A stretch of DNA of 38,946 nt from Thermoplasmata archaeon. Lineage in GTDB: Archaea; Thermoplasmatota; Thermoplasmata; Lutacidiplasmatales; UBA184. The stretch lies in the NCBI GenBank assembly GCA_022750205.1, contig JAKIWD010000006.1:1-38946 (forward strand), in the 5' to 3' direction. The notes under the pieces were generated by a model, which was given only the letters and a program-made list of their open reading frames with translations, did no database searches and was not told where the DNA came from. How positions within the stretch are numbered: the stretch's first letter is position 1; every line of letters starts with the position of its first letter. Below, one piece after another: positions 2,580 through 29,201 of the stretch. The translations under genes were made by a program, and so were the position numbers.

Positions 2580-5138
2580 ATGAACCCGAGGCGACAGCCC
2601 TCGGCCGCACAGGGTCTCCGAGCACGGCTGCGTCGGGCGCTGACTCTGCTCAGCGCGCTGGCGCTGATCGTGCTCCTGACCCTCCCGTACTCTCCGGCGA
2701 ATGGGGCGACCGGCTTTGGCGCGCGCCCGGCGCCGGTTCGGGGTGAGAGTCCGGGAGCGGCCGCGCTTTCCTTGGAGCGGGCGTCGAGGTTGGCCCTCCC
2801 CTGTACCTCCTCCCTGTCGTGCGAGCGGGGGCGCGGCCCCCTGAGCTACCCCGGCGCCAGCTCGTGGTGGGCCAACCTCAGTGGCACGCTCAACGCTTCT
2901 CCGGGGTGTCGCAGCAGTTTCGGGATGACTTGGGACGACGCCCTGAACGAGAGCGTGCTGTTCGGCGGGCTGGGCTCGTGTTCCGCATCCAGCTCGTACG
3001 CGCTCGGCGACACGTGGACCTTCGGCGCCGGTAGCTGGACCAATCGGACGGGCGGGACCACCCCCGCCGCCCGATTCTTCGGTACGATGGGCTACGATGC
3101 GTTGGACCGGGACGTGGTGCTTGTCGACGGGACGAACCTTACGGACACCCCCTTCAACGAGACGTGGACCTTCGGCTCGAGCGGATGGGCGCTGGCGCAC
3201 CTCGCGCTCCTACCGGAAGCCCGACTGCAAGCGGGAATGGCCTACGACTCGACCGACGGATACCTCGTACTGTTCGGAGGGAGCACGATCCCCGGCGGCG
3301 GTACTTTCTACCCGAACACTTGGCTCTACGCGCATGGGAATTGGACCGAGGCGACCGGGGGGGTTCAACCGTCGCCCCGACGCGACCCGATACTCATCGA
3401 CGACCCTGCCCGGAACGGGCTCATCCTATTCGGCGGTGTTTCGTCTTCGGGGGTCCCCCTCAATGACACGTGGCTATTCAAGGCGGGGACCTGGAGCCTG
3501 CTCTCCGCCGCCGCTGGGCCATCCCCTCGCTGGGACGGCTCCGGGGCGTACGACCAGAGCATCGGAGCGCCCCTGTTGTTCGGTGGCTGCCTCGCGCTGG
3601 GTTGCAACCCGGCCGCCGACGATGTTTGGAGCTTTACTACCCAGGGTTGGACCAATCTCACTGCAAGTGCCGGCAGCGGTCCGTCGGGCCGCGGCTCGGC
3701 GGGCTTCGCGTACGAGACCGGGACCGGTGGAGAACTGATGTTCGGAGGCGCCGGGGCCCAAGGCCGGGTGGGGGATACATGGAGGTTCCTCATCGCCCTC
3801 AGCGGCGCGGCGTCGATGGGGACCGGGCCGATCGATCTCGGGATGTCGCTCGCCGGGAACGTCAGCGTGAGTGGGGCCGCAACCCCCGTTGACGTGGAGA
3901 TCACTGGCGTCCCCGGTTGCGGGCCCGTCGGAGTGGGAAGTTTCGCGTGTACCCCGAATGCGACCGGGGAGTTCCCCGCCTCCCTGCTCGTGCACGACGG
4001 GGCGGGAAGACAGCTCAACCTCTCCCTGGGCACGGTCGTGGTCAACGCCCGCCCCAACGCGTCAGCGACCGCAACGCCGTCGTCGGGTACGGTTCCTTTC
4101 TCGGTCCGACTTACGGGCCGGAGCCTTGGCGGCACGAACCTGGGCAACGATCAGTGGCACATCTCCGGAGTGGCGGAGATCTTGCTCGGCCCGAACGTCA
4201 CGTACAACCTCACCACCGCTGGCAACTACACCTTTGCCTTCTCGGTCTCCGATCAGTTCTCGGAGACCGCTAGCGCCAGCGTGACGGTCAACGCTTTTGC
4301 GCCGTTCCTGGCGGCCGTCGACTGGTCTCTGATCAGCGAGGCATGCGTGGGTTCCTCCCCCACGTCGACGTATTCGCTCACTGGCTCGACCAGTGGCGGG
4401 CTCGGGCCGTACACGGTATCCTGGTCCGTGGGCGGTTCCTCGCTCCACGTCGTGTGGAACACGACGGCCGGCACCTCCCCCACCGTGACGATGAACGCCT
4501 CGGACTCCCGGGGGACCCACACCTCGGCGAGCGCGACGTTGACGTCCCCGCCCCTGACGTGCGGCACCACTCCCATTCCTCCACCGGCCGGGCGAAACGC
4601 AACGGCCTCGGGGCCTCAATGGGAAACGTTTGCCCTGGTCGGGACGGTGGCCGCGGCGGTCGCACTCCTAGTGGGACTCGTGCTGTGGCGCCGCCGGCCC
4701 CCGCCGACCACGGACGCACCCCCGGCGCCCTCCCCCGTCACGCCGGCCGACCGCTCCCCGCCACCATCGAATGCCTCGCCCGCGTCCGCGATGCCCGCCG
4801 TCGAGGGAGCCGCGGGAGCGGATCCTGCTGCTCGCAACGGCCCGGAGGCCTCGCTCTCCCAGCAAATCCTCACGCACCTGTATCGCCAGGGAAGGCTCGG
4901 CCCGGGGGAGGTCGCCCCGGTGTCCTTCACGCAGGAGGGGATCGGCAGGGCCCTTGGTCGAGATCAGAGCGCGTTCGCCAAGACATTGGTCCGCCTGGAG
5001 GCATCCGGACTGCTGGTCACCGAGGTCCAACACGTGACGGGTGGCACCCGCCGTCGGAAAGTGTACCGTCTCACCGATCGCGGCGAAACCCTCGCCCGAT
5101 CGCTGCGGACCCCCTCCCCCAGCAGAACGTCCGGCTAG
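2580..5138 (+). CDS. Kelch/PKD membrane receptor with cytoplasmic winged helix
   Basis: An 852-residue single-span protein. In order: a basic N-terminus and signal peptide (residues 1-43); a six-bladed Kelch-type propeller (about 105-405) with recurring FGG, NDTW and NGTW-like motifs; a cysteine-containing beta domain; PKD/Ig-like domains (about 490-690); one membrane span (682-702, followed by WRRR); a Pro/Ala-rich linker; and a winged-helix DNA-binding domain (about 758-840). The winged helix has a recognition-helix region FTQEGIGRALGRDQSAFAKT and a wing ending in RRRKVYRLTDRG. Sequons outside and basic residues after the span predict outside-in topology. The likely role is a one-component surface sensor or adhesin acting on transcription; the ligand is unknown. 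The neighbour at 5251 shares the propeller and may be its target or partner. The start at 2580 gives the best signal peptide; no strong box A is seen. Confidence 0.8.
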   Translation: MNPRRQPSAAQGLRARLRRALTLLSALALIVLLTLPYSPANGATGFGARPAPVRGESPGAAALSLERASRLALPCTSSLSCERGRGPLSYPGASSWWANLSGTLNASPGCRSSFGMTWDDALNESVLFGGLGSCSASSSYALGDTWTFGAGSWTNRTGGTTPAARFFGTMGYDALDRDVVLVDGTNLTDTPFNETWTFGSSGWALAHLALLPEARLQAGMAYDSTDGYLVLFGGSTIPGGGTFYPNTWLYAHGNWTEATGGVQPSPRRDPILIDDPARNGLILFGGVSSSGVPLNDTWLFKAGTWSLLSAAAGPSPRWDGSGAYDQSIGAPLLFGGCLALGCNPAADDVWSFTTQGWTNLTASAGSGPSGRGSAGFAYETGTGGELMFGGAGAQGRVGDTWRFLIALSGAASMGTGPIDLGMSLAGNVSVSGAATPVDVEITGVPGCGPVGVGSFACTPNATGEFPASLLVHDGAGRQLNLSLGTVVVNARPNASATATPSSGTVPFSVRLTGRSLGGTNLGNDQWHISGVAEILLGPNVTYNLTTAGNYTFAFSVSDQFSETASASVTVNAFAPFLAAVDWSLISEACVGSSPTSTYSLTGSTSGGLGPYTVSWSVGGSSLHVVWNTTAGTSPTVTMNASDSRGTHTSASATLTSPPLTCGTTPIPPPAGRNATASGPQWETFALVGTVAAAVALLVGLVLWRRRPPPTTDAPPAPSPVTPADRSPPPSNASPASAMPAVEGAAGADPAARNGPEASLSQQILTHLYRQGRLGPGEVAPVSFTQEGIGRALGRDQSAFAKTLVRLEASGLLVTEVQHVTGGTRRRKVYRLTDRGETLARSLRTPSPSRTSG

Positions 5139-5217
5139 CGGCCTCACCGTCCACCGGACCTTACGAAAGTGCCGTACGGCGTCGAGATGCCGTCTTGCGG
5201 CCATACATGCGCTGGCG

Positions 5218-5225
5218 GTTTATCT
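5218..5225 (+). promoter_or_regulatory. Box A before the 12-blade Kelch gene
   Basis: The element gtttatct is centred about 29 bp before the ATG at 5251, predicting a leaderless or nearly leaderless transcript. A perfect 10-bp palindrome (gccgtacggc, 5171-5180) lies about 40 bp upstream and is a possible operator, perhaps for the winged-helix protein encoded just before. The operator idea is speculative. Confidence 0.5.
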
Positions 5226-5250: not shown

Positions 5251-8034
5251 ATGCAGTCCGCGCGCCGCCTGCCCGGGTCTTCCCCGAACCTACCCCGCAC
5301 CCGCGGTCCGAGTTGCGCCGATGCGCTCGCTTCCGTCTCTCGGTGGGCCTCCGCGGTGCGTCGGTCTCGCGCAAGCTCGATCGTCGCGCTCTCCGGGCTT
5401 GCCGCCCTGCTCATCCTACCCGGTGGGGGGGTTCTGGCCGGGGGGGCCGGAGGGACCTCCGCCCCCGCCGGACTTCCGGGCCACGCCGTCAGTGTCATCG
5501 GGACGGATGTCAGCGGTGCACTGACCGCCGCGGCGCGGTCCCTGTCCGCGGGCCAGGGTCCGGCGGCGGGACACGCGATCAGGTGTGCCTTCGCAGCAGG
5601 GGCTGCGGCTTGTGGTCCGTCATTGGTCCCGTCGTCCGTAAGCGGTCCCGGCTGGAGCAACATCACCGCCTCGCTCGCGGCGTCTCCGGCGTGCCGGAGC
5701 AGCATTGGGATGACCTACGATGCGGCCGATGGCTACGTCCTCCTGCTCGACGGGCTCTCGGGCTGCCCGGCCGGTGTCTCCGGCGCGCACAACGACACCT
5801 GGGAGTACGCCAATGGCACCTGGTCGAACGTCACGGCCGGGCTCGCCACCTCCCCCTCGCCCCGGTTCATGGAGGGGCTCACCTACGACGCGGCGGACCA
5901 TTACGTGCTGATGTTCGGCGGGGAATCCCTCAACGGAAGCGGTCTCAACGATACCTGGACCTGGTCGAACGGGACCTGGACCCAGCTGACCCTGACCGTC
6001 GCTCCGTCGGCCCGGTTCCAGGCGGGGATCACGTACGACGCCGCCGACGGATATGTCCTGCTCTTCGGGGGGGCCCCGTTTTCGGGCGCGTCCTCGTACT
6101 ACGGTGACACCTGGTCGTACAAGGCCGGGGCGTGGAGCTCGATATCCCCGCCGTCGGGGATCGCCCCGTCGGCGCGCCGGGACATGGGTATGGCGTACGA
6201 TCCCGCGAACGGGCGCGTCGTGCTGTTCGGGGGCGTGGATGCGAGCTTCACCGGACTCTCCGACACGTGGACCTACCTCAATGGGACTTGGACCGCCGCG
6301 ACGCTGACGACCGCGCCTCCCGCGCGGTGGGACCCGGGTCTGACGTACGATCCGGGCGTGAACGGCCTCCTCCTGTTCGGTGGGTGCACCTCCCAAGGGT
6401 GTTACACCATGCTCCGCGATACCTGGGTGTTCGCGAACGGTACCTGGTCGGACCTCACCGCTGGGTTGTCGGCCGCTCCCTCGGCCCGCGGGGCGGAAGG
6501 GATGACGTACGACGCGGCCGACGGATACGTTGTCCTCTTCGCAGGGGCGCAGTACAACGGTCGATTGGCCGATACCTGGGTCTTCTCCGGGAGTGTCAAC
6601 GGGAGCAGTTCGGGTAACGGGATCGGCGGCGGGAACGGCGGATCGGGCGGCCGCGTGACGATCACCAATGCAACGGGGTGGACCAACGTCACCGCCGGTC
6701 TGGCGACCTCCCCGGCGTGCCGCAGCAGCATGGGGATGACCGACGATCTCGCGGACGGCTACGTCCTGCTCTTCGACGGCCTGTCGGGTTGCGCGCCGAT
6801 GGTGTCGGGTGCGCACAATGACACCTGGGAGTTCGCGAACGGGACGTGGTCGAATGTCACGGCGGGCCTCACGACCTCGCCCTCGCCCCGATTCATGGAA
6901 GCCCTCACCTACGACGCCGCCGACCGCTACGTCCTGATGTTCGGTGGGGAGGCGATCAACGGGAGCGGCCTCAATGACACGTGGAGCTGGTCGAACGGGA
7001 GCTGGACCCAGCAGAGCCCGACCACCTCCCCGGCGGCGCGCTTCCAAGCCGGGATGGCCTACGACGCCCTCGACGGCTACGTAGTGCTGTTCGGCGGAGC
7101 TCCATATTCGGGGGCCACCACCTACTTCGGCGACACCTGGTCGTACAAGGCGGGAGCGTGGACGACGATCTCCCCGACCGGCGGCACGGCGCCATCGGCG
7201 CGCCGGGATATGGGCATGGCGTACGATACTGCGATCGGGAGCATCGTCCTCTTCGGAGGTGTCGACGCCAGCTTCAACGGCCTCTCCGACACGTGGACGT
7301 ACGTCAATGGTACGTGGGCCACCTTGTCGCCGACCGTATCTCCGGCCGCCCGCTGGGACCCGGGACTTACGTATGATCCGGGCCTGAACGGCCTGCTGAT
7401 GTTCGGCGGATGCACCTCTCAGGGCTGCTACAGCGTGCTCAACGACACGTGGGCGTTCACGAATGGCTCCTGGACCGATCTGTCCAGCGGGCTCGCCACG
7501 GCACCCTCGGCCCGTGGTGCCGAGGGGATGACGTTCGACGGGTCGGACGGCTACGTTCTGCTGTTTGCTGGCGCTCAGTTCGGCGGTCGTCTCAGCGACA
7601 CCTGGATCTTCAACGGGACGATCGCTTCCACCGGGAACGGTTCGAGCGGCGGTTCCGGCTCCGGCGGCAGCAGTGGTTCGGGAGGGAACGAGAGCGGCAA
7701 TTCCTCCGGTAGTGGGGCTGGTTCCGGCAGCAACCAGGGCGGGAATTCTTCCGGGTACGGCGTCGGAACCGGAGGAGCGAGCGGCTGCGACAACGGGACG
7801 GGCAACTGTTCGGGGGCTGCTTCCACCGGGGGACCCCAAGACCAGGGGGGCACGCCCCTCGGCGGTTCGGGGAGCCCCGGCGCACAGTCCAGCTTCGGGG
7901 GCCTGTTTACGTCGTCCCGCATGGGCTCACCATGGTCCTTGCTCGTGCTGATCTTCTTCCTCGTTACGGGGGCCCTCGGTGTCGCGGTGGCATCAGGCCG
8001 TCGGGTCCGACGCCGACGAACCGGTGAGCGCTGA
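5251..8034 (+). CDS. Twelve-bladed Kelch-like surface protein, C-terminally anchored
   Basis: A 927-residue secreted and membrane-anchored protein of unknown ligand. It has a long basic N-terminus and a hydrophobic signal segment (about 45-70), two consecutive six-blade Kelch propellers (about 130-450 and 472-790), and a Gly/Ser/Asn-rich linker. One C-terminal membrane span (about 890-915) ends in a short Arg-rich tail. Each blade has a GMTYD or GLTYD start, an LFGG turn and a D-T-W...NGTW end; many NxS/T sequons suggest N-glycosylation. The first propeller opening (W-N-x3-L-x-ASP-x-CRSS) matches that of the neighbouring Kelch/winged-helix protein, so the two ectodomains are paralogous. This protein lacks the winged helix. 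The open frame extends upstream to 5041, but ATG 5251 is chosen because it follows a box A and gives a signal peptide. Confidence 0.82.
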   Translation: MQSARRLPGSSPNLPRTRGPSCADALASVSRWASAVRRSRASSIVALSGLAALLILPGGGVLAGGAGGTSAPAGLPGHAVSVIGTDVSGALTAAARSLSAGQGPAAGHAIRCAFAAGAAACGPSLVPSSVSGPGWSNITASLAASPACRSSIGMTYDAADGYVLLLDGLSGCPAGVSGAHNDTWEYANGTWSNVTAGLATSPSPRFMEGLTYDAADHYVLMFGGESLNGSGLNDTWTWSNGTWTQLTLTVAPSARFQAGITYDAADGYVLLFGGAPFSGASSYYGDTWSYKAGAWSSISPPSGIAPSARRDMGMAYDPANGRVVLFGGVDASFTGLSDTWTYLNGTWTAATLTTAPPARWDPGLTYDPGVNGLLLFGGCTSQGCYTMLRDTWVFANGTWSDLTAGLSAAPSARGAEGMTYDAADGYVVLFAGAQYNGRLADTWVFSGSVNGSSSGNGIGGGNGGSGGRVTITNATGWTNVTAGLATSPACRSSMGMTDDLADGYVLLFDGLSGCAPMVSGAHNDTWEFANGTWSNVTAGLTTSPSPRFMEALTYDAADRYVLMFGGEAINGSGLNDTWSWSNGSWTQQSPTTSPAARFQAGMAYDALDGYVVLFGGAPYSGATTYFGDTWSYKAGAWTTISPTGGTAPSARRDMGMAYDTAIGSIVLFGGVDASFNGLSDTWTYVNGTWATLSPTVSPAARWDPGLTYDPGLNGLLMFGGCTSQGCYSVLNDTWAFTNGSWTDLSSGLATAPSARGAEGMTFDGSDGYVLLFAGAQFGGRLSDTWIFNGTIASTGNGSSGGSGSGGSSGSGGNESGNSSGSGAGSGSNQGGNSSGYGVGTGGASGCDNGTGNCSGAASTGGPQDQGGTPLGGSGSPGAQSSFGGLFTSSRMGSPWSLLVLIFFLVTGALGVAVASGRRVRRRRTGER
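5641..7620 (+). repeat. Tandem duplication of a six-blade propeller
   Basis: Two in-frame copies of about 1 kb encode nearly identical six-blade units. Matching points (for example the tgc codon of the CRSS motif at 5692 and 6718) are 1026 bp apart, exactly 342 codons. Similarity is strong in protein and clear but diverged in DNA, so the duplication is not very recent. Confidence 0.85.
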
Positions 8035-14740: not shown

Positions 14741-16192
14741 GTGTCCAAGGCCCCGACGCTCGTCGCCCTCGATGAGTTCCGCTACGAGATCGCGACCTCG
14801 GAATCCCCGGGTATGCGCGTCCCGGGGATCCTCTTCTCGAACGCCCAGCTCTTGGGGGCCGTGGAGTCCGACCCGTCGCTCCAGCAGCTGGCGAACGTCG
14901 CCACCCTCCCCGGGATCCAGCTCCATGCGCTGGCCATGCCCGATATCCACTTCGGATACGGATTCCCCGTCGGCGGGGTCGCGGCGTTCGACGTCAAGGA
15001 AGGGGTCGTATCCCCCGGCGGGATCGGGTACGACATCAACTGCGGCGTACGGTTGGTCCGCACCGGGCTCACGCGCGATGAGGTCCGGCCGCACCTCGCA
15101 AATCTGATCGACGCGCTGTACAAGGCCGTACCGAGCGGGGTCGGCTCCAAGGGCCCCGTCACGCTCTCGGAGGGCGAGCTCGATGAGGTCCTCGCCGACG
15201 GCGCAGCGTGGGCGGTGCGGCGCGGGTTCGGCCGCGAGTCCGATCTCGCGGTGCAGGTGGAGAACGGGCGCATGCCCGGCGCCGATCCCGCGGCGGTCAG
15301 CCCGGCCGCTCGCAAGCGCGGCCACCGCCAGCTGGGCACCCTCGGTTCCGGCAATCACTTCCTGGAGGTCCAGGCGGTCGACGAGATCTTCTTTCCCGAG
15401 TTCGCGGAGCGGCTCGGGCTCGTCACCGGCGAGGTCGTCGTCATGCTTCACACCGGCTCGCGGGGGCTGGGACACCAGGTCGCGACCGACTACATCGCGA
15501 CGATGGACCAGCGGCTCGCGCGCGAAGGCGTCACCCTCGTCGACCGCCAACTGTCGTGCGCGCCGGTGGCCAGCGACGACGGTCAGCGGTACCTCCGCGC
15601 GATGGCGGCCGGAGCCAACTATGCCTGGGCGAACCGCCAGCTGATCACCGACGGGGTGCGCCGGGCGTTCGGCCAGGTCTTCGGCCGATCCGAGTCGGAA
15701 CAGGGGCTCGACGTGGTCTACGACATCGCGCACAACATGGCCAAGCTCGAGCACCACGCCGTGGACGGCGGGCGCCGCGAGGTGCTCGTGCACCGCAAGG
15801 GCGCCACGCGGGCTTTCCCCGCCGGCCGCGACGAAGTGCCGGTGGCGTACCGGGAGTTTGGCCAGCCCGTGCTGATCCCAGGCGACATGGGTACCGCGAG
15901 CTACGTGCTCGCCGGATTGCCGACGAGCATGGAGCGGTCGTTCGGTTCGTCGTGCCACGGTGCCGGGCGACTGTTGTCGCGGCACGCCGCCGTCCGTCGC
16001 TTCCGCTACGAGGAGGTCACTCGCTCGCTCGGGGCGAAGGGGATCATCGTCCGCGCCGCGTCCCGGGAAGGGGTCACGGAAGAGGCCCCGGGGGCCTACA
16101 AGGACGTTGAGCAGGTCGTGCGCGTCGCCGAGGGGGCGGGGCTCACGCGACGGGTCGCGCGCCTCGTGCCGCTTGGCGTCGTCAAGGGCTAG
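14741..16192 (+). CDS. rtcB: RNA-splicing ligase RtcB
   Basis: GTP- and Mn-dependent ligase joining 2',3'-cyclic phosphate (or 3'-phosphate) and 5'-OH RNA ends; in archaea it seals tRNA exons after intron removal. The 483-residue protein has the metal-binding GIGYDINCGVR (C101), the GTLGSGNHFLEV segment, HTGSRGLGHQ, IAHNMAKLEHH, and the GMP-accepting histidine H406 in SSCHGAGR. All key motifs are intact. The GTG at 14741 is chosen because it lies 25 bp after a box A; the open frame extends back to 14669 but that part looks non-coding. An intron-containing tRNA-Leu in this same window (33495-33609) is a natural substrate. The 3' end overlaps the convergent sedolisin gene by 11 bp. Confidence 0.96.
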   Translation: MSKAPTLVALDEFRYEIATSESPGMRVPGILFSNAQLLGAVESDPSLQQLANVATLPGIQLHALAMPDIHFGYGFPVGGVAAFDVKEGVVSPGGIGYDINCGVRLVRTGLTRDEVRPHLANLIDALYKAVPSGVGSKGPVTLSEGELDEVLADGAAWAVRRGFGRESDLAVQVENGRMPGADPAAVSPAARKRGHRQLGTLGSGNHFLEVQAVDEIFFPEFAERLGLVTGEVVVMLHTGSRGLGHQVATDYIATMDQRLAREGVTLVDRQLSCAPVASDDGQRYLRAMAAGANYAWANRQLITDGVRRAFGQVFGRSESEQGLDVVYDIAHNMAKLEHHAVDGGRREVLVHRKGATRAFPAGRDEVPVAYREFGQPVLIPGDMGTASYVLAGLPTSMERSFGSSCHGAGRLLSRHAAVRRFRYEEVTRSLGAKGIIVRAASREGVTEEAPGAYKDVEQVVRVAEGAGLTRRVARLVPLGVVKG

Positions 16193-19100
16193 ACTCTTCC
16201 CGTTCTCGGCGACCGGCGAGGGCGCCGAGTAGGACCGCGAGACCCACCCCGCCGCCTGCTAGCAGGATCCACGCAGGATCGAGCGCGTAGGGGATCACCA
16301 CCGACGCGACGGCGGCTTGGACGACAAGGGGAACTTCGACGTGGCCGGTGTAATTGTCCCCCACGACGGAAGCGTTCAGCTCGTAGCTTCCGGCCGCAGA
16401 CGGTGCGATGAGGTCGACGAAGATCCCTCCCGTCGGGCCCGGGCTGGCCGAACCCGCGGGGACGAGGGGCCCACCGGCGCGCGATTGGAACCCGAACGCG
16501 ACGTGGAATCCGGAGATCGAGCACGAGGGTGCGCTCAGGTTCGTGCACACCGGGTCCGCCGAGACCGTGGCCCCGACGAGGGCTCCCGGCGCGACGGACG
16601 ATTCGGCCAACGACGCGGTCAGCGTGACGGTGGTGCGGTTGTAGGCGGTGATGGTAAAGACCGACTCGTTGGTGTCCAACAGCGAATCGCTCACCGTGAC
16701 GACCGGCGCGTAGTGGCCCGGCACGACGAACTCGTGTTGCGTCGAGCTACCGGTCCCGACGCTCCCGTCGCCGAAGTTCCATGCGAACGTGTACGGCGCC
16801 CCGCCGCCCGCGACCCCGGACACGGAGAAGTTCACGAACAACGGTGCCAGGCCGGCCGTGACGTTCGGTCCGCCGGTCAGCGCCGGCGCGGAGCGAGCGG
16901 GGCCGGTGATCGTCAGCGCCTGGCTGCGGACGAGCCGGTCGCCCCACGGATCGGTCGCGGTGTCGCGGACCGTGTAGTTCCCGGCGTTCAGGTACGTGTG
17001 CGTGACCGACGTCCCGAGCGCGGTCCCCCCATCCCCGAACGACCAGGCGACCGAGAGGCCCGAGATCCCCGTGGCTTCGGCGGTCGCGTTGAGATGCAGG
17101 GGCGTCGCGCCGTTGACGGGCCTGACGCTATCGGTCAAGGTCGCCGCCGCGCTGCGACCGGCGACCGCGTCGGTGAGGAGGACCGCGGCCGACGTGGTGT
17201 TCCCGTTGCGGTCCGTGGCACTGACGCCCACGACGAGCGGGCATGCCCCGTTGCGGATGCACGGGAGCGCCCCGAACGTCTGGGTGACCGTGGCGCCGAA
17301 GGAGGAATCATCGTCGCCGAGGTCCCAGCGGTAGGTGTACGGTCCGCTGCCGCCGGTCACATTGGCGGTGAGCGTGACGAGCGTTCCGGCCGGGACCTCG
17401 ACCGCCGGCGTGACGGAGACGGTGAGGGCCGGCCCGGCGGAGTCGGACGGGGAGAGCGCGTCGACGACGAACGCCGCGCTCGTCACACCCCCGCCCGCGT
17501 CGCCGAGCTGACCGATCACGACGTAGAGCCCGGGCGAAGTGTACTCGTGGGCGACCGCCGCACCGGTGCCGGACGTTCCATCGCCGAACGTCCAGGTGGT
17601 CGCGTTGGGTTGAGGGGCGTCACCCCCGCTCGCCGCGGCCGTGAAGGTCACGGAGAACGGGGCCACTCCCGAGAGGGCCGAATGGTTGAACGTGCCGAGC
17701 AGCGCGGGATACAGCGTGACGTTCAGCTGGGCCGTCGTTTGCTCGTCGACGCTGTCATTGACGTAGGCCGTGAGGGTGTGGTTCCCCGCGACGCGGAAAA
17801 TGCCGCAGTCGCAGGCGTTCACGTACGGGTCGTCGGTGACCCATTGCACGGTGTAGGGGGGCGAGCCGCCGACCGGTGTGACGGACAGGTTCAGGTCTCC
17901 CGGTAGGTCGGCGGAGGTGCGCGGGGCCGAGACCTGCGCCGTCAAGTTGGGAGGATTGGCGCAGTTCGGCGGGCTCGCGCCGCCGACCCCGATCGCCAGG
18001 CGGCTGGAGGTCCCCCCGTCGACCGGGTCGGCGGAGTCCCGGACGATCACCGCGGCGCAGAATCGCCCGGCCGCACCGTAGACGTGCGAAACCGTTCCGG
18101 CGGTGGTGTTCGCCAGATACGAGCCATCGCCGAACACGTAGTAGTACTGCCACGGGGACGGTCCCCCGCGCACGGTAGCGGTCAGGTTGATCGCCTGACC
18201 GACGGAGGGGGTGGCGTTCGTGGCGGTGAGCGTGACGTTGAGGGCGTGGCCCCCGCCGACGACGATCGCCACCGGAGCCGAGGTCGAGGAGTTCCCGGCC
18301 GAATCGAAGACGGTCGCCGTCGCGACGTAGACGCCCGCGTCGGGGAACTGGTGCGTGACCGTTCCGGACCCGGCGAGGGACGCGTTGCCGTCGCCAAAGC
18401 TGACGTCGATGAGGGGATACGGGGGTCTCCCGCCGGCGGCGCTCAGGTCGAACGTAGCGACTAACGGCGCCTTCCCAAAACGCGGTCCGGCGCCCAGGGT
18501 CAGCGCGAGAGTTCCGGGCGACGCCCGCTCGGCGGCGAGCTGTGGGAACAGTCGACCGATGTTGGGGCTCCCGAGCCCCGTCACGGCGTCCCAGCCGACT
18601 CCGGCGCTGTAGCCATTCCAACCGGAGGTGACATCGTGGTACGTCCCGTTGGACGACGTGTTCCGGGCGATCCCATACAGACCGGGGTTGAGGAACCCGA
18701 GCCCGCCCCGTGCGAAGCTGTCCGCGTCGGTCGCCAGCCCCGCCCAGAGCACGGTCGACGCGCTCGTTCCGCCGACTCCCACGAAAAAGCCACTCTCGAC
18801 GATCTCTACGCTCGTGCCCCCGTCGATCGCGACATCCGGCACACCTCGTACGTCCGGGGATGCGGGCAACCCCTTGGCCAACTGCCACCACGGACGCGCG
18901 AACGGCGCAAAGCCCCCGCCGGATCCGCCCTGGTTGGCGCACCCCGGCGAGGAGGCCCCGGTGGAGTTGCCAGACCAGGCCACCTCGGAGGAATAGGCTC
19001 CCCCGGAGGTCTTGAGGTCGGTCCCGCCGACTCCGGTCACGAATGGGTCCGAGGCCGGGTAGCTCGTCGAATCCCCGTTCGTCCCCTCGGCCGCGCCGCA

Positions 19101-20357
19101 GTCGCCGCTCGCGGAAAAGACCCCGATGCCCTCGGCCGCCGCGTCGGCGAGAACCGGGTGGAGGATCGCGTAGGAACCGTCACTGGTGGCGTTGCACGCG
19201 GACGAACACGGCGTCGCGAACGAGTTGTAGACCCCGACGTCCGGCTCGCCCCAGCTCAGCGAGATGACGTTCGCGGCCTGGTGGGCGACGAGCCAATCCA
19301 CTGAGCCGTACAGTCCGGCGCCCGGGTCCGGGGCGAATGTCATCTCGATCGTAGCGCCGGGAGCCATGGCGCGGGTCCATTCCAGGTCCAGCGCCTCCTC
19401 GGTCGCCCACCCGGTGCTCGTCTTGTTCAGGTTGCGGGTGGTCGGGACCGGGTAGAGGTACTGGACCGACCCGAGGGAGATCCCGTAGTTCGAGGTGAAA
19501 TCCCCCAAGTCGCCTTCGAGGACGGTCTGGTTCTCGAACCCGTCGTAGGTGTCCACGACCGCGAGCCGGAAGCCACTACCGTTGTCCCCGGCTTTCAGGT
19601 CGGTCGTGGCGTTGTACGCCGATTGGATCTCGCACGGTGCATACGGCGCACTCGAGGGGCACGAGGCTGCGGGCGTCGGCACTGGCGGCGCACTCACGCC
19701 GGCCGGGCCCCGAACATCCGGCCGGGCGACCGAGTCGTTCCCTAGTCCGTAGGCGCCGAGCCACGGCACCGAGTCGGGGAGCGTGGCCGCGCTCGGGTGG
19801 TTGAAGAACACCCCTTGCGGCGCGTGATAGGCGTCGAACGTCGTGTGGAACGCTGCCCCGACATCCACGGGCGATCCTCCGACGAGCAGAAGCGTGTGGT
19901 CCGGACTGGCGGTTACCTTGAGTCCGAACTCTTCAAAGTAGGCGACCGCGGCCGCGTACTCGTCGCCCGAAGGGCCGAACTGGGCGGCGATCTGGGAGGG
20001 GCTGAGGAAGGTGTGGTACTGAGGAGCGTCCGGAGTGTACTCGAGCGTCGTCGTCGCCGCCAGTCCCGCCGGGTCCCGCGGGGCGAGCGCCACCGCGACG
20101 TCGAGGGCCGCGGTGCTCGAGAGGGGGCCGAGGTCGGTCACGCCGGGGCCCGGGACGTACGCCGGGGCCACCACTACCGGACCCGTCGGGAGTGAACGCG
20201 CCGCGGAGCCGGTCCTCACCGCCGGGGTCGCGAGCCCGGGGAAGAGCGGAAGGCACGAGACGACGACGAGGAGGGTGACCGCGATCACCCGGGGACCGAG
20301 AGATTGCGGACGGGCGCCGGGAGGCGTTCGACCCGTCCGGCGAACGGCGGCCCGCAA
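16182..20357 (-). CDS. Membrane-anchored sedolisin (S53) protease with PKD repeats
   Basis: About 1391 residues. In order: a basic N-terminus and hydrophobic signal segment (about 24-45); an S53 activation prodomain (about 65-200); the S53 catalytic domain (about 220-620); seven PKD-like repeats (several with FGDG cores); a last beta domain; and one membrane span followed by a short charged tail. Catalytic residues are intact: E320 and D324 (E-x3-D), oxyanion-hole D419 in SASGD, and nucleophile S532 in GGTSAS. The WDAVTGLGSPN segment forms the usual calcium site. S53 enzymes are typically acid-active extracellular endopeptidases, so this one is probably displayed on the cell surface for protein breakdown. 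The TTG at 20357 follows a box A by about 31 bp; GTG 20288 is the alternative. The frame stays open further upstream, but that part overlaps the divergent protease gene. Confidence 0.88.
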   Translation of the reverse strand: MRAAVRRTGRTPPGARPQSLGPRVIAVTLLVVVSCLPLFPGLATPAVRTGSAARSLPTGPVVVAPAYVPGPGVTDLGPLSSTAALDVAVALAPRDPAGLAATTTLEYTPDAPQYHTFLSPSQIAAQFGPSGDEYAAAVAYFEEFGLKVTASPDHTLLLVGGSPVDVGAAFHTTFDAYHAPQGVFFNHPSAATLPDSVPWLGAYGLGNDSVARPDVRGPAGVSAPPVPTPAASCPSSAPYAPCEIQSAYNATTDLKAGDNGSGFRLAVVDTYDGFENQTVLEGDLGDFTSNYGISLGSVQYLYPVPTTRNLNKTSTGWATEEALDLEWTRAMAPGATIEMTFAPDPGAGLYGSVDWLVAHQAANVISLSWGEPDVGVYNSFATPCSSACNATSDGSYAILHPVLADAAAEGIGVFSASGDCGAAEGTNGDSTSYPASDPFVTGVGGTDLKTSGGAYSSEVAWSGNSTGASSPGCANQGGSGGGFAPFARPWWQLAKGLPASPDVRGVPDVAIDGGTSVEIVESGFFVGVGGTSASTVLWAGLATDADSFARGGLGFLNPGLYGIARNTSSNGTYHDVTSGWNGYSAGVGWDAVTGLGSPNIGRLFPQLAAERASPGTLALTLGAGPRFGKAPLVATFDLSAAGGRPPYPLIDVSFGDGNASLAGSGTVTHQFPDAGVYVATATVFDSAGNSSTSAPVAIVVGGGHALNVTLTATNATPSVGQAINLTATVRGGPSPWQYYYVFGDGSYLANTTAGTVSHVYGAAGRFCAAVIVRDSADPVDGGTSSRLAIGVGGASPPNCANPPNLTAQVSAPRTSADLPGDLNLSVTPVGGSPPYTVQWVTDDPYVNACDCGIFRVAGNHTLTAYVNDSVDEQTTAQLNVTLYPALLGTFNHSALSGVAPFSVTFTAAASGGDAPQPNATTWTFGDGTSGTGAAVAHEYTSPGLYVVIGQLGDAGGGVTSAAFVVDALSPSDSAGPALTVSVTPAVEVPAGTLVTLTANVTGGSGPYTYRWDLGDDDSSFGATVTQTFGALPCIRNGACPLVVGVSATDRNGNTTSAAVLLTDAVAGRSAAATLTDSVRPVNGATPLHLNATAEATGISGLSVAWSFGDGGTALGTSVTHTYLNAGNYTVRDTATDPWGDRLVRSQALTITGPARSAPALTGGPNVTAGLAPLFVNFSVSGVAGGGAPYTFAWNFGDGSVGTGSSTQHEFVVPGHYAPVVTVSDSLLDTNESVFTITAYNRTTVTLTASLAESSVAPGALVGATVSADPVCTNLSAPSCSISGFHVAFGFQSRAGGPLVPAGSASPGPTGGIFVDLIAPSAAGSYELNASVVGDNYTGHVEVPLVVQAAVASVVIPYALDPAWILLAGGGVGLAVLLGALAGRREREESSP

Positions 20358-20383
20358 CGGTACCTGTCGATGCGACGCCCGCC

Positions 20384-20392
20384 CTATTAAGG
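20384..20392 (-). promoter_or_regulatory. Box A of the S53 protease gene
   Basis: Read on the minus strand the element is ccttaatag, centred about 31 bp before the TTG at 20357. It supports the TTG start and a very short leader. Confidence 0.5.
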
Positions 20393-20469
20393 GGCGTCCA
20401 GTCGCCCGCAACACCCGGGAGCGTCCCGCGAGGCGCCTCATCTCCGGCGAACGCGCGCGGAGGGCAGAG

Positions 20470-20478
20470 GCTTTTACG
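20470..20478 (+). promoter_or_regulatory. Box A of the site-2 protease gene
   Basis: The element gcttttacg is centred about 37 bp before the TTG at 20511, predicting a leader of about ten bases. It lies back to back with the S53 promoter. Confidence 0.45.
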
Positions 20479-20510
20479 GGAACCGGGCTCCCACCGACAT
20501 CACCGCGGCG

Positions 20511-21866
20511 TTGACGCCTCTCCAAGGCTGGCTGCTCTTCGTCGCCCTCCTTGTCCTCTACGGATTGGCGGTCTACGGACTGTACCGGGCCGGTCGCATC
20601 GGGCCGGATCGGTCGCTCTCGCTCCTCGGCCCGGCGCTCATGATGAAGACCCGGCGCGGGCGGGGACTCCTCGAACGCTTGGGCCGATTCCGGCGATTCT
20701 GGTCGGTGCTCGGGAGCATCGGCGTGGGGCTCGCGGGGATCGCGATGGTCCTCATTGTCGGACTCCTCGCCCTGGATGCGTACGCCGTCACGCAGATCTC
20801 GCCGAGCGCGGCCCCCTCTCCCCAGGAGGCGCTCGGGATACCGGGCATCAATCCGATCATCCCGATCGGATACGGATTGGTCGCCCTGGCCATCGGGATC
20901 GTGCTCCACGAGTTGGCGCACGGCGTGATGGCGCGCTCCCAGGGGATCGGGGTCAAGACCCTCGGCATCCTCTGGTTCATCGTCCCGATCGGGGCGTTCG
21001 TCGAGCAGGACGACGAGCAGATGAACGCAGCCCCGCGACGGCAACGTCGGCGGGTGGCCGCCGCGGGCGTTCTCGCCAATTTCATCCTGACCGTCGTGTT
21101 CTTCCTAGTGCTGGCCGCGACGCTTTCCGGGTCGATCGCCCCCAACGCGAACGGGGTGGGCGTCGCCTACGTGGTCACCGGTAGCCCAGCGGCCAACGCG
21201 AGCCTGGTGCCGGGCGACATCATCACCGCGATCAACGCCACCCCCACGCCGACGAACGCGGCGCTGCTGGACGCGCTCGCCGCGGACAAACCGGGGGCGG
21301 TCGTCGCCGTGACGTTCTACAATGCGAGTTCGGGGGCTCTCGAAACGAGATCGATCACGCTCGCCGCGCGCGGCGAGTACGTGACCGATGACCCCACCCA
21401 CGCCGACGAGGGGTTCCTCGGGGTTTCCCCGTTATTCCTCACGCCGGCGGGCCTGAAGTCGGACCTCGTGTTTCCGCCCACGAGTCCCTCCGGTACGATC
21501 ATCGGCGGCATCGATTGGCTCGTCCTCCCCCTCGCCGGCATCGAGCCGATCGCGGGGCCCACGGCGGGTTTCTTCCACGTCACCGGACCGTTGGCGGGGC
21601 TCGGGGCGGGCAACTTCTGGATCCTCGCCAACCTGCTCTACTGGCTGGCGTGGATGAACCTCCTGCTCGGTCTCTCCAACACCCTCCCGCTCATCCCGCT
21701 CGACGGCGGGCTGCTGTTCCGCGACTTCATCGCCGGCATCGCGGCCCGGGTGCGCCCACGATGGGACGCAGCGCGCTTGGACGGGTTCAGCGGATCCGCT
21801 ACGATCGCCTCGTCGGTCATCGTCGTCTTCCTCCTGGTATGGCAGTTCGTCGGTCCGCACCTGTAG
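20511..21866 (+). CDS. Site-2-type M50 intramembrane metalloprotease with PDZ domain
   Basis: A 451-residue multi-span membrane protease that cuts substrates within or near the bilayer. The zinc site is HELAH (H133, E134, H137) within a membrane helix. The second conserved motif, NTLPLIPLDGG (N390 to D398), supplies the third ligand. Between them lies a PDZ-like domain (about 215-290, with GSPAANASLVPGDII), as in RseP-like enzymes. Several further hydrophobic helices flank the core. The TTG start follows a box A; its 3' end overlaps the primase gene by 28 bp. Substrates are unknown. Two single-span surface proteins with cytoplasmic zinc fingers and one with a winged helix are encoded in this window, but such enzymes usually cut proteins of the opposite topology, so a link is uncertain. 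Confidence 0.9.
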   Translation: MTPLQGWLLFVALLVLYGLAVYGLYRAGRIGPDRSLSLLGPALMMKTRRGRGLLERLGRFRRFWSVLGSIGVGLAGIAMVLIVGLLALDAYAVTQISPSAAPSPQEALGIPGINPIIPIGYGLVALAIGIVLHELAHGVMARSQGIGVKTLGILWFIVPIGAFVEQDDEQMNAAPRRQRRRVAAAGVLANFILTVVFFLVLAATLSGSIAPNANGVGVAYVVTGSPAANASLVPGDIITAINATPTPTNAALLDALAADKPGAVVAVTFYNASSGALETRSITLAARGEYVTDDPTHADEGFLGVSPLFLTPAGLKSDLVFPPTSPSGTIIGGIDWLVLPLAGIEPIAGPTAGFFHVTGPLAGLGAGNFWILANLLYWLAWMNLLLGLSNTLPLIPLDGGLLFRDFIAGIAARVRPRWDAARLDGFSGSATIASSVIVVFLLVWQFVGPHL

Positions 21867-24302: not shown

Positions 24303-27300
24303 ATGAATCAAGCAGCCCCAGCCAGCCGACCCCACTTGCCGAACCGGCGCGTCCTCTTCGCGCTCGCGGTCACCTGCGTCATGGTGCTCAGTTCGGCGCT
24401 CATCGCGGCCCCGGGCAACGCCCGCGCGGAGACCCCCACGGCCACAGCGTTCATGGCGGGCAGTTCGATGCATAGCGGGGTCCTGACGGGGGCTGAGCTT
24501 CAGCATTCGACGTACGCGACCTCGCCGGGCAGTGGCATGACGGCGATCACGAACGGGACCATCCTGGGCAATGTCGCCGGCTCGAGTCCCGTCGCCTTCA
24601 CGATCGGCTTCGCGCTGCAGAACGAATCAGAGCTCACCCAGATCCTCGCGGCCCAGGCGTCCGAAGGCTCCCCGATGTTCCAGCACTGGCTCACGCTCCA
24701 GCAGGAGAACCAGATGTTCGGGCCGAACCCCGTCGAGGTCCAGAACACGATCAACTACTTCACCTCCCTCGGGTTTCGCGTCGCGACCGAGGGCCCGATC
24801 TCCATCTCTTTCATCGGTCCGGCCGCGTCCACCAACGCGGCGTTCAAGACCACGCTCGTCAACGTCAAGGAGAACGGGGCGACCGCGATCACCAACGCGG
24901 CCCCGCTCTCGCTTCCCGGCCAGATCGCCAACGGCATCTCGACGGTCAACGGGTTGAACCAGCTCAACGTCGCCCACGTCACCAGCTTCGTCGACCCGGC
25001 GCTGACGGGAGACATGGCCGCGTCGCTGGCGATGACCCCGAGCGATCTCTCGACCTCGCTCTCCACCCCCACGACCTACCTGAACACCTCGCAGGCGTAC
25101 AACTTCACGAACGCGGCGTTCCTCTGGTTCCGCTACTTCTCGATGCACCACAAGGCGTTCGAGACCTGGCAGACGATCACGCCCGGCTCGCTGGACAAGA
25201 TCTACGGCGCCTACCCGCTGCTGAATGCCGGGATCAATGGCAACTCGACGGGCAGCCCGATCACCGTCGCGTTGGTCATGGCCGGCGGGATCAACCCGAG
25301 CGACATCCAGGAGTACGGCCAGCTGGTGTTCAATAACCCCAAGGCGATCTTCGATCGCCTCGTGCCGGTCCCCGTCGACGGCTCCTTCACGGACAACGGC
25401 ACGCTGACCTACACCGACGGCGACTCCAACGAGATGGCCCTCGACATCGACTACTCGGCGACCATGGCACTGGGCGCGAAGATCATGCCGGTCTACGGGC
25501 CTTGCCTGTGCACCAACGTGCTCGACGACGACTACGCGACGATCGACGCGATGCTCAAAGTGCCCAACGTGGTCTCGAACTCCTGGGGCGGGGAGGAGGA
25601 CACCTTCGGTAACCTCTACGGGCCGAACTGGCAGAACACGCTCACGATGCACCACTACTTCATGCTCCTCGATGCCCGCGGCGTGACGATCCTCGCTTCG
25701 AGCGCGGACGGCGGCGGCTTCGACACGGGGACGGGCATGCTCTCCGGCGCCTTCCCGGCGACCGACCCCTACGTGCTCTCGGTGGACGGGACCCGAGCGG
25801 CGGAGACGGACGGTTCGGGCGTGGCGTTCCCGTACACGGACTCCCTGGGCCTCGCCAATCTGACGATCGACACGCTGATCAACTGGCCGGTCCACGTCGA
25901 GCAGGCGACCCAGCTACAGTACCAGTCGTTCTGGTACCAACCGATCGCCAACACCACCCTCTACAACGCACCCCCCGAGGCCTCGGGCGGGTTCGGGACG
26001 AGCTACTGGTTCAACCAGAGCTGGTACCAGAACGGCATCGGCGTCCCCAACCTCGGACGTGCGCTCGGCTCGGGCGTCGGTGCGGAGGCCGACTTCAACG
26101 AGACGATCTACTTCGACGGCGGGATCGAGTACTTCTACGGGGGCACGAGCTTTGCCTGCCCCACCACCGCCGGCATGTTCGGCCTCATCGACGACTACCT
26201 GCTCGACCACGGCCACAGCGCCTACCTCGGCGACGGCAACGTCCCCGTGTTCACGGTCGGCAACGCGTGGCTCAACGGCAACCTGAGCCTCGTCCCCTAC
26301 TACGACGTCGTCAACAACGGCACCAGCTACTGGGGCAACTACGGCGTGGAGAAGGGATACTCCTGGCCTCCGGGACAGAAGTTCCCGATGTCACCCCAGG
26401 GATACACGACCTACGGGAACACGACGAAGGGCTGGGACTTCCCGACGGGCTGGGGCTCGATCAACGTGGCCAACTTCGCCACGGACCTCGCCGCGCTGGA
26501 ATCACTGCCCGGGACCTTCCAGATCATCAACACGACGACGAACAGCTTCAACGTGGGTGCCTGGGACTACATGGTCCTGAACCAGAGCTACACCGTCCAC
26601 CTCAACGCGTCGGCGTCCTTTGGGGCATCCAATCCAACGGTAACGGTGGAGTTCTTTGCCCAAAATGGACAAAAGTCGACGATGCAGTTCCCGCTTACTG
26701 CAGTATTCACGCCGACTCTCGGGTTCAACTTCGTGCTCGACACGAGCATCTCGCCGTTCAATGGCCCAGGTCTGATCATCTTCGAGTCCGGGAACGACAG
26801 CACGCACACTGCAGGTTTCGCCTACACCTGGATCTCTTGGCCAGCTCCGCCCGGAACGTTGACCGTAACGGTCGTAGACCCCCAGCAGTCGAGCGAGGTC
26901 GGCGGGTACGCCCAGTTCAACCCCTGGCCGTTCGGCTACGACGCCCCGGTCTCCGTCTCGCCCAGCTGCTGCACGGCGTATCCGAACTCGTTCACCGTCC
27001 AGGTGACGTTCAACGGCCATGCCGTCTACAACGCCCAGGTCGATGCGACGGTCCCGAGCGCCAGCGTCCTCGCCTGGCAGGGCTCCCCGATCCAAGGGGT
27101 GACCCAGGGCGACGGACGTCCGTCCCACGAGCTCACGAGCGCCATCCTCTCGCAGACGTTCACCAACACGTCCGGGTACGCCCTCGTCTACACGTGGAAC
27201 GTCATCGCGCCGACGTCCTACTTCGTCAACGCCACGTACGGTTCCGCCATCGGCGGCACGACCTACACGATGACGCCCGGCCCGAACGTGGGAACAACCG

Positions 27301-29201
27301 ATGACTACGGCGGGAACTACTCCGAGCTCAACACGGTCGCCTTCGTGCTCAAGCAGATCCGCCAGACGGTCAACCCGACCACAGAGAACTACTGGGCCCC
27401 CAACTCAGTCTACCAGTCGGCGTACTACGACATGCTCTACACCTGGCAAGGCGAGGAGCTCCCGGTCCACACCAGCGACTACCAGGGCAATGCGCTGGGG
27501 GGTCTGAAGGTCTGGTTCGGCAACTACGACGTCGGCGGGGAGAACAAGTTCTACAAGTACATCCCCTCGGGCGGCTCCGTCGGCGTGACGAACACTTCCG
27601 GCACGAGCGCGATCACGGGGGGGGACGGCAACGCGACGGTCTACATCCCGCAGAACCAGTCGTTGGACTTCTTCGTCTACACCAACGGCACACCGGCGTT
27701 CGGATTCGGCTTCGTGTCCGCCTCGATCCCGGGCGTCCAGAACCGCACGTTCAGCTACACCGAGCCGTGCGCGCCGACGCTCGTGAACCCGAAGACGACG
27801 ATCACCTGCCAGTACAATGACTCGTTCCAGCGCAACTACACCTCGGTCCCCGCCGTGGTCTTCCCGGACCCGGTCAAGGCGTGGACGGACACGACCTCCA
27901 AGGTCCAGCGCGACTTCTTCGGTGAAGGGGCCAGCGTCGCGGCCGCGGTGTCGATCCACCTGCCGACGGGTGACCCGTTCATCACCGGTATCGGCTACAA
28001 CTGGCCGTCCGGACTGGAGCACGTCGTCAGCGCGAACGCCTATGTCGATGGCGTCTACGCGGGCACGATGAGCCCGAACACGCCGCCGGACTGGCAGACC
28101 TACAACTCGACGGTCAACCTGACGGGAACCTACGGCGCGGGCAACCACACGCTCGAGGTCATCGTCGACGACAGCCTGGGCCACGTGTTCACGTCCCGCC
28201 ACACGTTCATCGTGGGTGGGGTGACCGTGCCGACGCTCCGGCAGTACACGGTGCTCCCGTACAACCTGACCTGGACCCTGGACATTCCCTACGTGGAGAT
28301 GAACAACCACACGTTCAACCAGACCCTCGACATCCGCTACGTCACCAACGGCTGCGGCGGCTCCCTGAGCCCCTGCCCGACCGTCGTGAACTACACGGAG
28401 CGGATCCGGGACGGCGTGGTCAACTACTACCAGCTGCTCAACCTGACACTGCTGAACCTGAACCACTTCTACGGCGGTTCCTCGACACTCCCCGCGGGTC
28501 AGTACCAGTTGATCATCTGGCTGAACGCCAACCATAGCGGCAGCATCGCGACGGAGCTGAGCACCTATCTCGTGTTCAATCCGGTCGTCGCGCACCTCAA
28601 CGGTCCGACGGCGAACGAGACCGTGCCGATCGGCAACGTGACGCTCTCGTACTCGTACTCCGGTCAGTACATCCAGGCGGCCAACCTGAGCGTCTACTCG
28701 GCGGCCGACCTGCAGGTGCCGGTCTTCAACGTGATCGCCTACGTGCCCGGCGACGGGCTGCGGGGTGGCGCGGCGAACTGGATCGCGGTCGACCAGGGGC
28801 CCTACCGGGTCACCTTGGCGCTGGGGACGCCGTACGGCTGGGACAACATCACCGAGAACATCACCGTGCTCGAGACGACAGGGCTCGTATGGCTGAACCA
28901 ATCGTCCGCGGCTCACCCACTGGGCGGGATGGGCGCGGCCGAAACGGGAACGATCCTGGCGCTCGTCGCGGGGATCCTCGGGCTCCTGATCGGTCTATGG
29001 ATCGCCCCGTCGTTCCGCCGCATGCCCACGGGCCCCAGCGGCAAGGGTAGCACCAAGCCGTGGGAGGAGGGACCCGCCGGGGCCACGAGCGCCGCGGGTC
29101 GTCAGGCCGGTCGGATCACGTGCCCCGTCTGCAAGGACGAGTTCTCGACGGAGTTTGCGCTCCACGAGCACCAGAAGATCGTCCACGGCATCGAAGAGTA
29201 G
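24303..29201 (+). CDS. Giant sedolisin (S53) protease with stalk, membrane span and C2H2 zinc finger
   Basis: A 1632-residue surface protease. In order: signal peptide (about 1-42); S53 prodomain (about 90-230); catalytic domain (about 295-730) with E377 and D381 (E-x3-D), oxyanion D469 in SSADGGG and nucleophile S616 in GGTSFAC; about 800 residues of beta-rich, sequon-rich domains; one membrane span (about 1548-1568); a basic linker with a KPW motif; and a classical zinc finger, C1607-x2-C1610-x12-H1623-x4-H1628, with the conserved Phe and Leu core. All catalytic and zinc-binding residues are intact. The finger lies on the predicted cytoplasmic side. The membrane-proximal 300 residues, span, linker and finger are homologous to the next gene. 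Function is extracellular protein breakdown plus an unknown cytoplasmic role (DNA binding, protein docking or sorting). A patch at 26613-26880 has different codon use. Confidence 0.86.
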   Translation: MNQAAPASRPHLPNRRVLFALAVTCVMVLSSALIAAPGNARAETPTATAFMAGSSMHSGVLTGAELQHSTYATSPGSGMTAITNGTILGNVAGSSPVAFTIGFALQNESELTQILAAQASEGSPMFQHWLTLQQENQMFGPNPVEVQNTINYFTSLGFRVATEGPISISFIGPAASTNAAFKTTLVNVKENGATAITNAAPLSLPGQIANGISTVNGLNQLNVAHVTSFVDPALTGDMAASLAMTPSDLSTSLSTPTTYLNTSQAYNFTNAAFLWFRYFSMHHKAFETWQTITPGSLDKIYGAYPLLNAGINGNSTGSPITVALVMAGGINPSDIQEYGQLVFNNPKAIFDRLVPVPVDGSFTDNGTLTYTDGDSNEMALDIDYSATMALGAKIMPVYGPCLCTNVLDDDYATIDAMLKVPNVVSNSWGGEEDTFGNLYGPNWQNTLTMHHYFMLLDARGVTILASSADGGGFDTGTGMLSGAFPATDPYVLSVDGTRAAETDGSGVAFPYTDSLGLANLTIDTLINWPVHVEQATQLQYQSFWYQPIANTTLYNAPPEASGGFGTSYWFNQSWYQNGIGVPNLGRALGSGVGAEADFNETIYFDGGIEYFYGGTSFACPTTAGMFGLIDDYLLDHGHSAYLGDGNVPVFTVGNAWLNGNLSLVPYYDVVNNGTSYWGNYGVEKGYSWPPGQKFPMSPQGYTTYGNTTKGWDFPTGWGSINVANFATDLAALESLPGTFQIINTTTNSFNVGAWDYMVLNQSYTVHLNASASFGASNPTVTVEFFAQNGQKSTMQFPLTAVFTPTLGFNFVLDTSISPFNGPGLIIFESGNDSTHTAGFAYTWISWPAPPGTLTVTVVDPQQSSEVGGYAQFNPWPFGYDAPVSVSPSCCTAYPNSFTVQVTFNGHAVYNAQVDATVPSASVLAWQGSPIQGVTQGDGRPSHELTSAILSQTFTNTSGYALVYTWNVIAPTSYFVNATYGSAIGGTTYTMTPGPNVGTTDDYGGNYSELNTVAFVLKQIRQTVNPTTENYWAPNSVYQSAYYDMLYTWQGEELPVHTSDYQGNALGGLKVWFGNYDVGGENKFYKYIPSGGSVGVTNTSGTSAITGGDGNATVYIPQNQSLDFFVYTNGTPAFGFGFVSASIPGVQNRTFSYTEPCAPTLVNPKTTITCQYNDSFQRNYTSVPAVVFPDPVKAWTDTTSKVQRDFFGEGASVAAAVSIHLPTGDPFITGIGYNWPSGLEHVVSANAYVDGVYAGTMSPNTPPDWQTYNSTVNLTGTYGAGNHTLEVIVDDSLGHVFTSRHTFIVGGVTVPTLRQYTVLPYNLTWTLDIPYVEMNNHTFNQTLDIRYVTNGCGGSLSPCPTVVNYTERIRDGVVNYYQLLNLTLLNLNHFYGGSSTLPAGQYQLIIWLNANHSGSIATELSTYLVFNPVVAHLNGPTANETVPIGNVTLSYSYSGQYIQAANLSVYSAADLQVPVFNVIAYVPGDGLRGGAANWIAVDQGPYRVTLALGTPYGWDNITENITVLETTGLVWLNQSSAAHPLGGMGAAETGTILALVAGILGLLIGLWIAPSFRRMPTGPSGKGSTKPWEEGPAGATSAAGRQAGRITCPVCKDEFSTEFALHEHQKIVHGIEE

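Follow-up and report, generated by a model that had tools for sequence, protein, structure and literature searches.

A Kelch-propeller surface protein joined to a C-terminal winged helix: a proposed transmembrane transcription regulator in Thermoplasmata

The window, i.e. the whole stretch of 38,946 nucleotides that was analysed, comes from a Thermoplasmata genome assembled to 2.24 Mb in 205 contigs. Two neighbouring genes on its forward strand, P0001 and P0002, are the subject of this report, and the coordinates of their features are given in Table 1. P0001 combines a large ectodomain with a membrane span and a winged helix; P0002 is a paralogous surface protein. Elsewhere in the window, 16182-21044 (-) and 24303-29201 (+) encode very large proteins (about 1620-1632 residues) with a pro-kumamolisin activation domain, the former with five PKD stretches; judged by their sequences, they are likely to be secreted or surface acid proteases.

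Table 1. Features of the P0001-P0002 locus (window coordinates; residues refer to P0001)
Feature	Position	Strand	Basis
P0001, Kelch-Ig/PKD-TM-winged-helix protein, 852 residues, proposed transmembrane transcription regulator	2580..5138	+	ORF, Pfam, hydropathy, AlphaFold, orthologues
Signal peptide, residues 1-43, ANGA cleavage-like	2580..2708	+	Hydropathy peak, AlphaFold helix; cleavage site inferred by eye
Six-bladed Kelch beta-propeller, residues 95-404	2862..3791	+	Pfam, blade motifs, AlphaFold model, Foldseek
Ig-like domain 1, residues 408-489	3801..4046	+	AlphaFold model
Ig/PKD-like domain 2, residues 493-573	4056..4298	+	AlphaFold model; PKD Pfam matches of orthologues fall here
Ig/PKD-like domain 3, residues 577-653	4308..4538	+	AlphaFold model
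Transmembrane helix, residues 682-703, then arginines	4623..4688	+	Hydropathy, AlphaFold
Pro-rich disordered cytoplasmic linker, residues 704-753	4689..4838	+	29% Pro; pLDDT <50 almost throughout
Winged-helix domain, residues 759-843	4854..5108	+	Homologue alignment, AlphaFold, Foldseek
Recognition helix, residues 797-808	4968-5003	+	
Wing, residues 812-831, conserved Arg pair	5013-5072	+	
GCCGTACGGC, perfect intergenic palindrome, candidate operator, suggestive only	5171..5180		
GGCCATACATGCGC, imperfect copy of CGCAT-NN-ATGCG palindrome, suggestive only	5199..5212		
TATA-like element about 30 nt before the P0002 ATG	5219..5224	+	Sequence; inference
P0002, paralogue, 927 residues: two tandem Kelch propellers, TM, short basic tail; proposed partner and/or target	5251..8034	+	Pfam, hydropathy, adjacency

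Hydropathy of P0001 is maximal at residues 20 and 684, corresponding to a signal peptide and one more membrane span, and the AlphaFold model of the full protein, built from a 28-sequence alignment, has helices at residues 11-33 (signal) and 682-703 (transmembrane). Kelch repeats were matched in Pfam by PF24681 (E = 1.3e-14) and Kelch_3 (E = 2.2e-7). Six [DEN][TV]W signatures in residues 144-399 indicate six blades, and the repeats form a propeller modelled over residues 97-403 with a pLDDT of about 95, the closest Foldseek matches of which are eukaryotic Kelch domains (LZTR1, KLHDC2 and others; E of 1e-16 to 1e-12). The model continues with three Ig-like sandwiches. The Pfam PKD profile remains below its cut-off in P0001 (best E of 0.42) and is above it in the orthologues L062, L064, L110 and L111. 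No Pfam match to a histidine kinase or a receiver domain was found in P0001. The signal peptide, single membrane span, six Kelch blades and Pro-rich linker of the initial annotation are all supported by these data, as are its PKD-like domains, which correspond to the three modelled sandwiches and pass the Pfam cut-off only in the four orthologues.

The ectodomain contains 19 glycosylation sequons, compared with 5.4 expected by shuffling (maximum of 14 in 2000 shuffles), and the 149 cytoplasmic residues after the transmembrane helix contain one. An arginine run directly follows this helix, and the predicted pI is 11 for the winged-helix domain versus 4.7 for the ectodomain. From the sequon distribution and these arginines, the receptor part is most likely outside and the winged helix inside the cell; the possibility that the topology is reversed was examined computationally and did not hold.

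The last 100 residues of P0001 were modelled separately with 45 homologues. The model is a canonical winged helix (mean pLDDT of 89; order H1-H2-H3-beta hairpin-H4), as had been proposed from the sequence, and the recognition helix and the wing arginine pair are conserved across the homologues. The nearest solved folds in Foldseek are MepR, other MarR proteins (MexR, ZitR and others) and PadR, with E of about 1e-3, a probability of 1.00 and a TM-score of about 0.6 by query length. The term MarR-like is correct for the fold core, which has the MarR winged-helix arrangement, but not for membership of the MarR family: the Pfam MarR/MarR_2 profiles score 13.1 bits for whole P0001 and 17.2 bits for its C-terminal part (cut-off 27), and the N- and C-terminal dimerisation helices of MarR are absent, the domain extending from helix 759-770, after the disordered linker, to a short helix at 833-843. 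PadR (PF03551) scores 23.8 bits for the whole protein and 27.9 bits for the 144-residue C-terminal part (cut-off 27), the latter a weak match limited to profile positions 37-71 of 75 (P0001 residues 802-837). P0001 thus shares the winged-helix core of MarR and PadR regulators, whereas it lacks their long dimerisation helices and as a whole protein falls below the Pfam cut-offs. Lacking these helices, it would need the membrane or the ectodomain to dimerise. On the basis of the model, the winged helix is a predicted DNA-binding domain.

In class relatives (L101-L106), the same winged helix precedes STAND/AAA-type ATPase domains at the N-terminus, and four of these six proteins also have TPR repeats. 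This layout resembles that of the MalT regulator and supports a role of the winged helix in transcription control. It also bears on the proposal that P0001 is an adhesin or surface-layer component, with its cytoplasmic winged helix serving as a protein-protein or anchoring module that does not bind DNA. Winged helices can act as protein-binding modules, and Kelch and PKD surface proteins are abundant in the genus; the positive charge, the conserved wing arginine pair and recognition helix, the MalT-like relatives and the many surface paralogues without a winged helix make this proposal very doubtful.

Fused Kelch-Ig/PKD-TM-winged-helix proteins occur in five more genomes, namely G007 (L062), G036 (L063), G112 (L109), G107 (L110) and G113 (L111), with a full-length P0001 orthologue in G007:C94, and G005 (L064) has a contig-end fragment with the PKD, transmembrane and winged-helix part. 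An assembly error was rejected as the source of the fusion, the fusion being carried independently by other genomes. Among the fused orthologues, identity to P0001 is 53-65% in the winged helix, 33-46% in the Kelch domain and 28-35% in the Ig region, so that the winged helix is the best conserved part of the protein. P0001-like surface proteins abound in the 60 nearest genomes, and the TM-winged-helix region, used as a query, matched 50 of the 78 genomes of the genus; the weakest of these matches may be of the distant N-terminal type. Scanning the genome contigs with P0001 also gave two distant Thermoplasmata MAG loci. Several family members show an in-frame stop in the matched sequence (L036/L075, L047/L092 and L048/L093; G025:C47, G018:C3 and G028:C27), which may reflect a split gene, a pseudogene or an error of assembly.

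The two propellers of P0002 have six blades each and are 76% identical to one another and 41% identical to the propeller of P0001; the internal duplication spans 5659-7650. The transmembrane helix of P0002 is C-terminal and there is no winged helix, so the neighbour with a paralogous ectodomain described in the initial annotation is confirmed. A same-strand Kelch-type surface ORF lies directly downstream of the fused gene at all seven fused loci (the window, L062, L063, L064, L109, L110 and L111), which are mutually related and do not represent seven independent events; at L109 and L111 the contig ends within the downstream ORF, which in L111 is a 142-residue fragment 260 bases away. The context comparison rests on ribH, which lies upstream of P0001 in the window, and on queries downstream of P0002. 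Since ribH was not found at the other fused loci, the pair of fused gene and Kelch gene is conserved although the upstream context, at least, differs. A methyltransferase gene downstream in the window is shared with L062 and, at a different position, with L111. This conserved adjacency supports a functional link between P0001 and P0002. Of the earlier suggestion that P0002 is a target or co-receptor, it is this link that stands; the data are compatible with target, co-receptor or both.

Elsewhere in the genus, the winged helix occurs in short proteins (about 200-330 residues as read, mostly 210-280) that consist of one transmembrane helix, a linker and the winged helix. By manual tally, 18 of 19 loci of these small members lie directly downstream of a large surface-protein gene on the same strand; 13 of these upstream genes were recognized by homology to P0001/P0002 and five by inspection of the upstream ORF, the latter with ectodomains of other kinds, for instance the NHL/YncE-type propeller of L079. 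After their transmembrane helix, surface partners carry a short C-terminal cytoplasmic motif, RxEGxxxVxEL; a strict pattern detects it in 20 of 27 partners and in one of 29 other surface ORFs. The count excludes the upstream ORF of L090, whose C-terminus was read out of frame. Among the other surface ORFs, the sole carrier, L098, is itself beside a winged-helix ORF. The difference corresponds to a Fisher P of 2e-8 (2e-9 with L098 counted as a partner), values that are optimistic because the pattern was written after viewing the partners, although the contrast is nonetheless large. The tail is missing from the partners of fused genes. Two-gene modules, in which a protein with a signal peptide, an ectodomain, a transmembrane helix and the RxEGxxxVxEL tail is followed by a TM-winged-helix gene, are seen genus-wide (L071 3051-5973, L079, L083, L086, L100, L116, L122, L125 and others), with ectodomains that differ between Kelch, PKD and NHL/YncE propeller. 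A third group, with two PKD domains, a transmembrane helix and the winged helix in one protein, is also represented in a second family of the same order (L094); in a phylum-wide sample, matches spanning PKD and winged helix were confined to the window's own family among the matches listed.

The occurrence of one module in fused and split versions is strong evidence that the surface protein signals to the winged helix, and the existence of the split version suggests that the two share one signalling path. The small members, with one N-terminal transmembrane helix, would also fit a scheme in which proteolysis after sensing frees the winged helix to act as a soluble factor, and the long disordered linker of P0001 (residues 704-753) could accommodate cleavage. 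An unsystematic search found no protease gene or cleavage motif linked to the loci, however, and ToxR and CadC work from the membrane (PMC10269533 and, in part, general knowledge); we regard release by proteolysis as improbable. P0001 is instead proposed, on the basis of its modelled architecture, to regulate transcription from the membrane.

The 112 bp gap between P0001 and P0002 (5139-5250) was inspected for candidate operators. From its sequence, P0002 may possibly have its own promoter and a leaderless start. A 13-mer, GCCGTACGGCGTC, at the GCCGTACGGC site is common to the orthologous junction in L062, and related repeats are present in L109. With 16 occurrences in the window's genome versus 13 for the control, GCCGTACGGC is near background; it was rejected as an established operator and kept as a candidate. 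The second palindrome, CGCAT-NN-ATGCG, is present as exact CGCAT-CT-ATGCG in the partner promoters of L063 and L064, and the partner promoters of L110 and L075 have CGCATATGCG and GCGCATATGCC, respectively. The window copy carries two mismatches, and at up to three mismatches 23 matches were found in the window versus 25.7 expected, which is the chance level. In look-elsewhere tests, 72 of 400 shuffles reached the observed count for 4-base half-sites (not significant) and one of 100 for 5-base half-sites (borderline). Because the tests corrected for motif choice are weak, the window matches are at chance and GCCGTACGGC is near background, autoregulation of the P0001-P0002 pair is put forward only as a prediction from sequence.

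CGCAT-NN-ATGCG is about 3.5-fold over its reversed control in ten genomes, with sites at L063 3656, L064 1346, L071 3136, L147 2888, L131 1506, L148 1931, L156 3063 and L153 3199 that precede Kelch genes, genes with type-IV-pilin-like N-termini and other signal-peptide genes. It may be a surface-gene operator of some regulator. As an established operator it was rejected: it is striking before the surface genes of L063, L064 and L071, but is at chance level in the window and its counts ignore the presence of the family. These sites are nevertheless relevant to the view that P0001 is the same transmembrane regulator but acts on genes located elsewhere, such as those for pilins or further surface proteins, P0002 being just a co-receptor or a surface protein expressed together with it. 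In ten genus genomes there are 32 CGCATNNATGCG sites versus nine for the reversed control, several of them before Kelch, pilin-like or other signal-peptide genes where the stretch examined contains no winged-helix gene, and in Sulfolobus several promoters for surface appendages are bound by ArnR (PMC6396743). Against this, the manually tallied counts hardly differ between genomes with and without the family (about 1.8 versus about 1.6 per genome), many CGCATCGATGCG matches have no promoter-like sequence alongside, and the partner gene immediately next to P0001 offers the simplest target. Targets lying elsewhere are considered somewhat unlikely. The P0002 promoter remains the likeliest nearby target in our preferred reading, in which P0001 is a one-component transmembrane transcription regulator that senses outside and binds DNA inside; this reading we hold to be likely.

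The ectodomains of Bacteroides hybrid two-component systems consist of beta-propellers and an Ig-like domain. Like P0001, these systems join an extracytoplasmic ectodomain and DNA binding in one protein, and Foldseek lists the BT4673 ectodomain (PDB 3va6) among its weaker matches to the full P0001 model; unlike them, P0001 has no histidine kinase or receiver, and its propeller is of a different type. The archaeal surface-layer protein of PDB 1l0q, another weak Foldseek match, likewise combines a propeller (YVTN) with PKD, but has no winged helix and is not known as a regulator. Transmembrane transcription regulators (TTRs) are widespread, and ToxR/ToxS and TcpP/TcpH each comprise a regulator and an associated protein (Demey et al. 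2023, PMC10269533). P0001 has the defining combination of a predicted DNA-binding domain and at least one transmembrane region in the same protein, and resembles TTRs in the absence of a kinase and in having an adjacent gene for a possible membrane partner (here P0002), as is often the case (ToxS, TcpH). It differs from TTRs such as ToxR, with their N-terminal OmpR/PhoB-type winged helix, in its C-terminal MarR/PadR-like winged helix, its type I topology, its Kelch propeller and Ig/PKD-like ectodomain and the nature of the partner, a large paralogous surface protein. The studied archaeal membrane-bound one-component regulator is ArnR/ArnR1 of Sulfolobus acidocaldarius (PMC6396743), which also has an HTH domain and acts on surface-structure genes. 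Its layout is the opposite of that of P0001: the HTH lies at the N-terminus and two transmembrane spans at the C-terminus, and it has a putative HAMP and sensor domain but no large ectodomain (PMC6396743). Full-text searches of an open-access library turned up nothing relevant on Kelch/PKD ectodomains in archaeal one-component regulators; TTRs are already known, and the form with a Kelch-Ig/PKD ectodomain and a C-terminal winged helix appears to be new within the scope of that library.

The kinase-free transmembrane regulator envisaged in the initial annotation is supported by structure prediction, sequons, orthologues and the split and fused relatives; we infer DNA binding, the ligand, the target and the switching step. 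In the proposed mechanism, the Kelch propeller and Ig/PKD-like stalk would point outward as a receptor, and the single span and flexible linker of about 50 residues would hold the winged helix inside, where it would bind promoter DNA from the membrane. A ligand, or contact with the co-encoded P0002, would alter how the winged helix oligomerises or where it lies, and hence its grip on DNA. By analogy, the sensing of polymers is plausible. P0001 and P0002 would then form a self-adjusting surface-sensing module in the manner of ToxR/ToxS, with the P0002 promoter regulated in turn, and in the fused version the covalent linker would stand in for the contact between tail and regulator.

The fused and split relatives together point to a lineage-specific direct wiring of surface receptors to gene control. 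A broader reading, which we offer tentatively as possible but short of probable, is a receptor-transcription class of the lineage's own, in which propeller/PKD surface proteins would signal straight to a dedicated winged helix, either as two genes (through the RxEGxxxVxEL docking tail) or fused, each module controlling its own or its partner surface protein. Environmental sensing in archaea that make little use of two-component systems is largely open, and the system offers testable parts, all of them predicted: a propeller that would bind the ligand, a docking motif and a separately expressible DNA-binding domain. If this is true, many Kelch and PKD surface genes of these Thermoplasmata that now lack annotation would gain a likely function.
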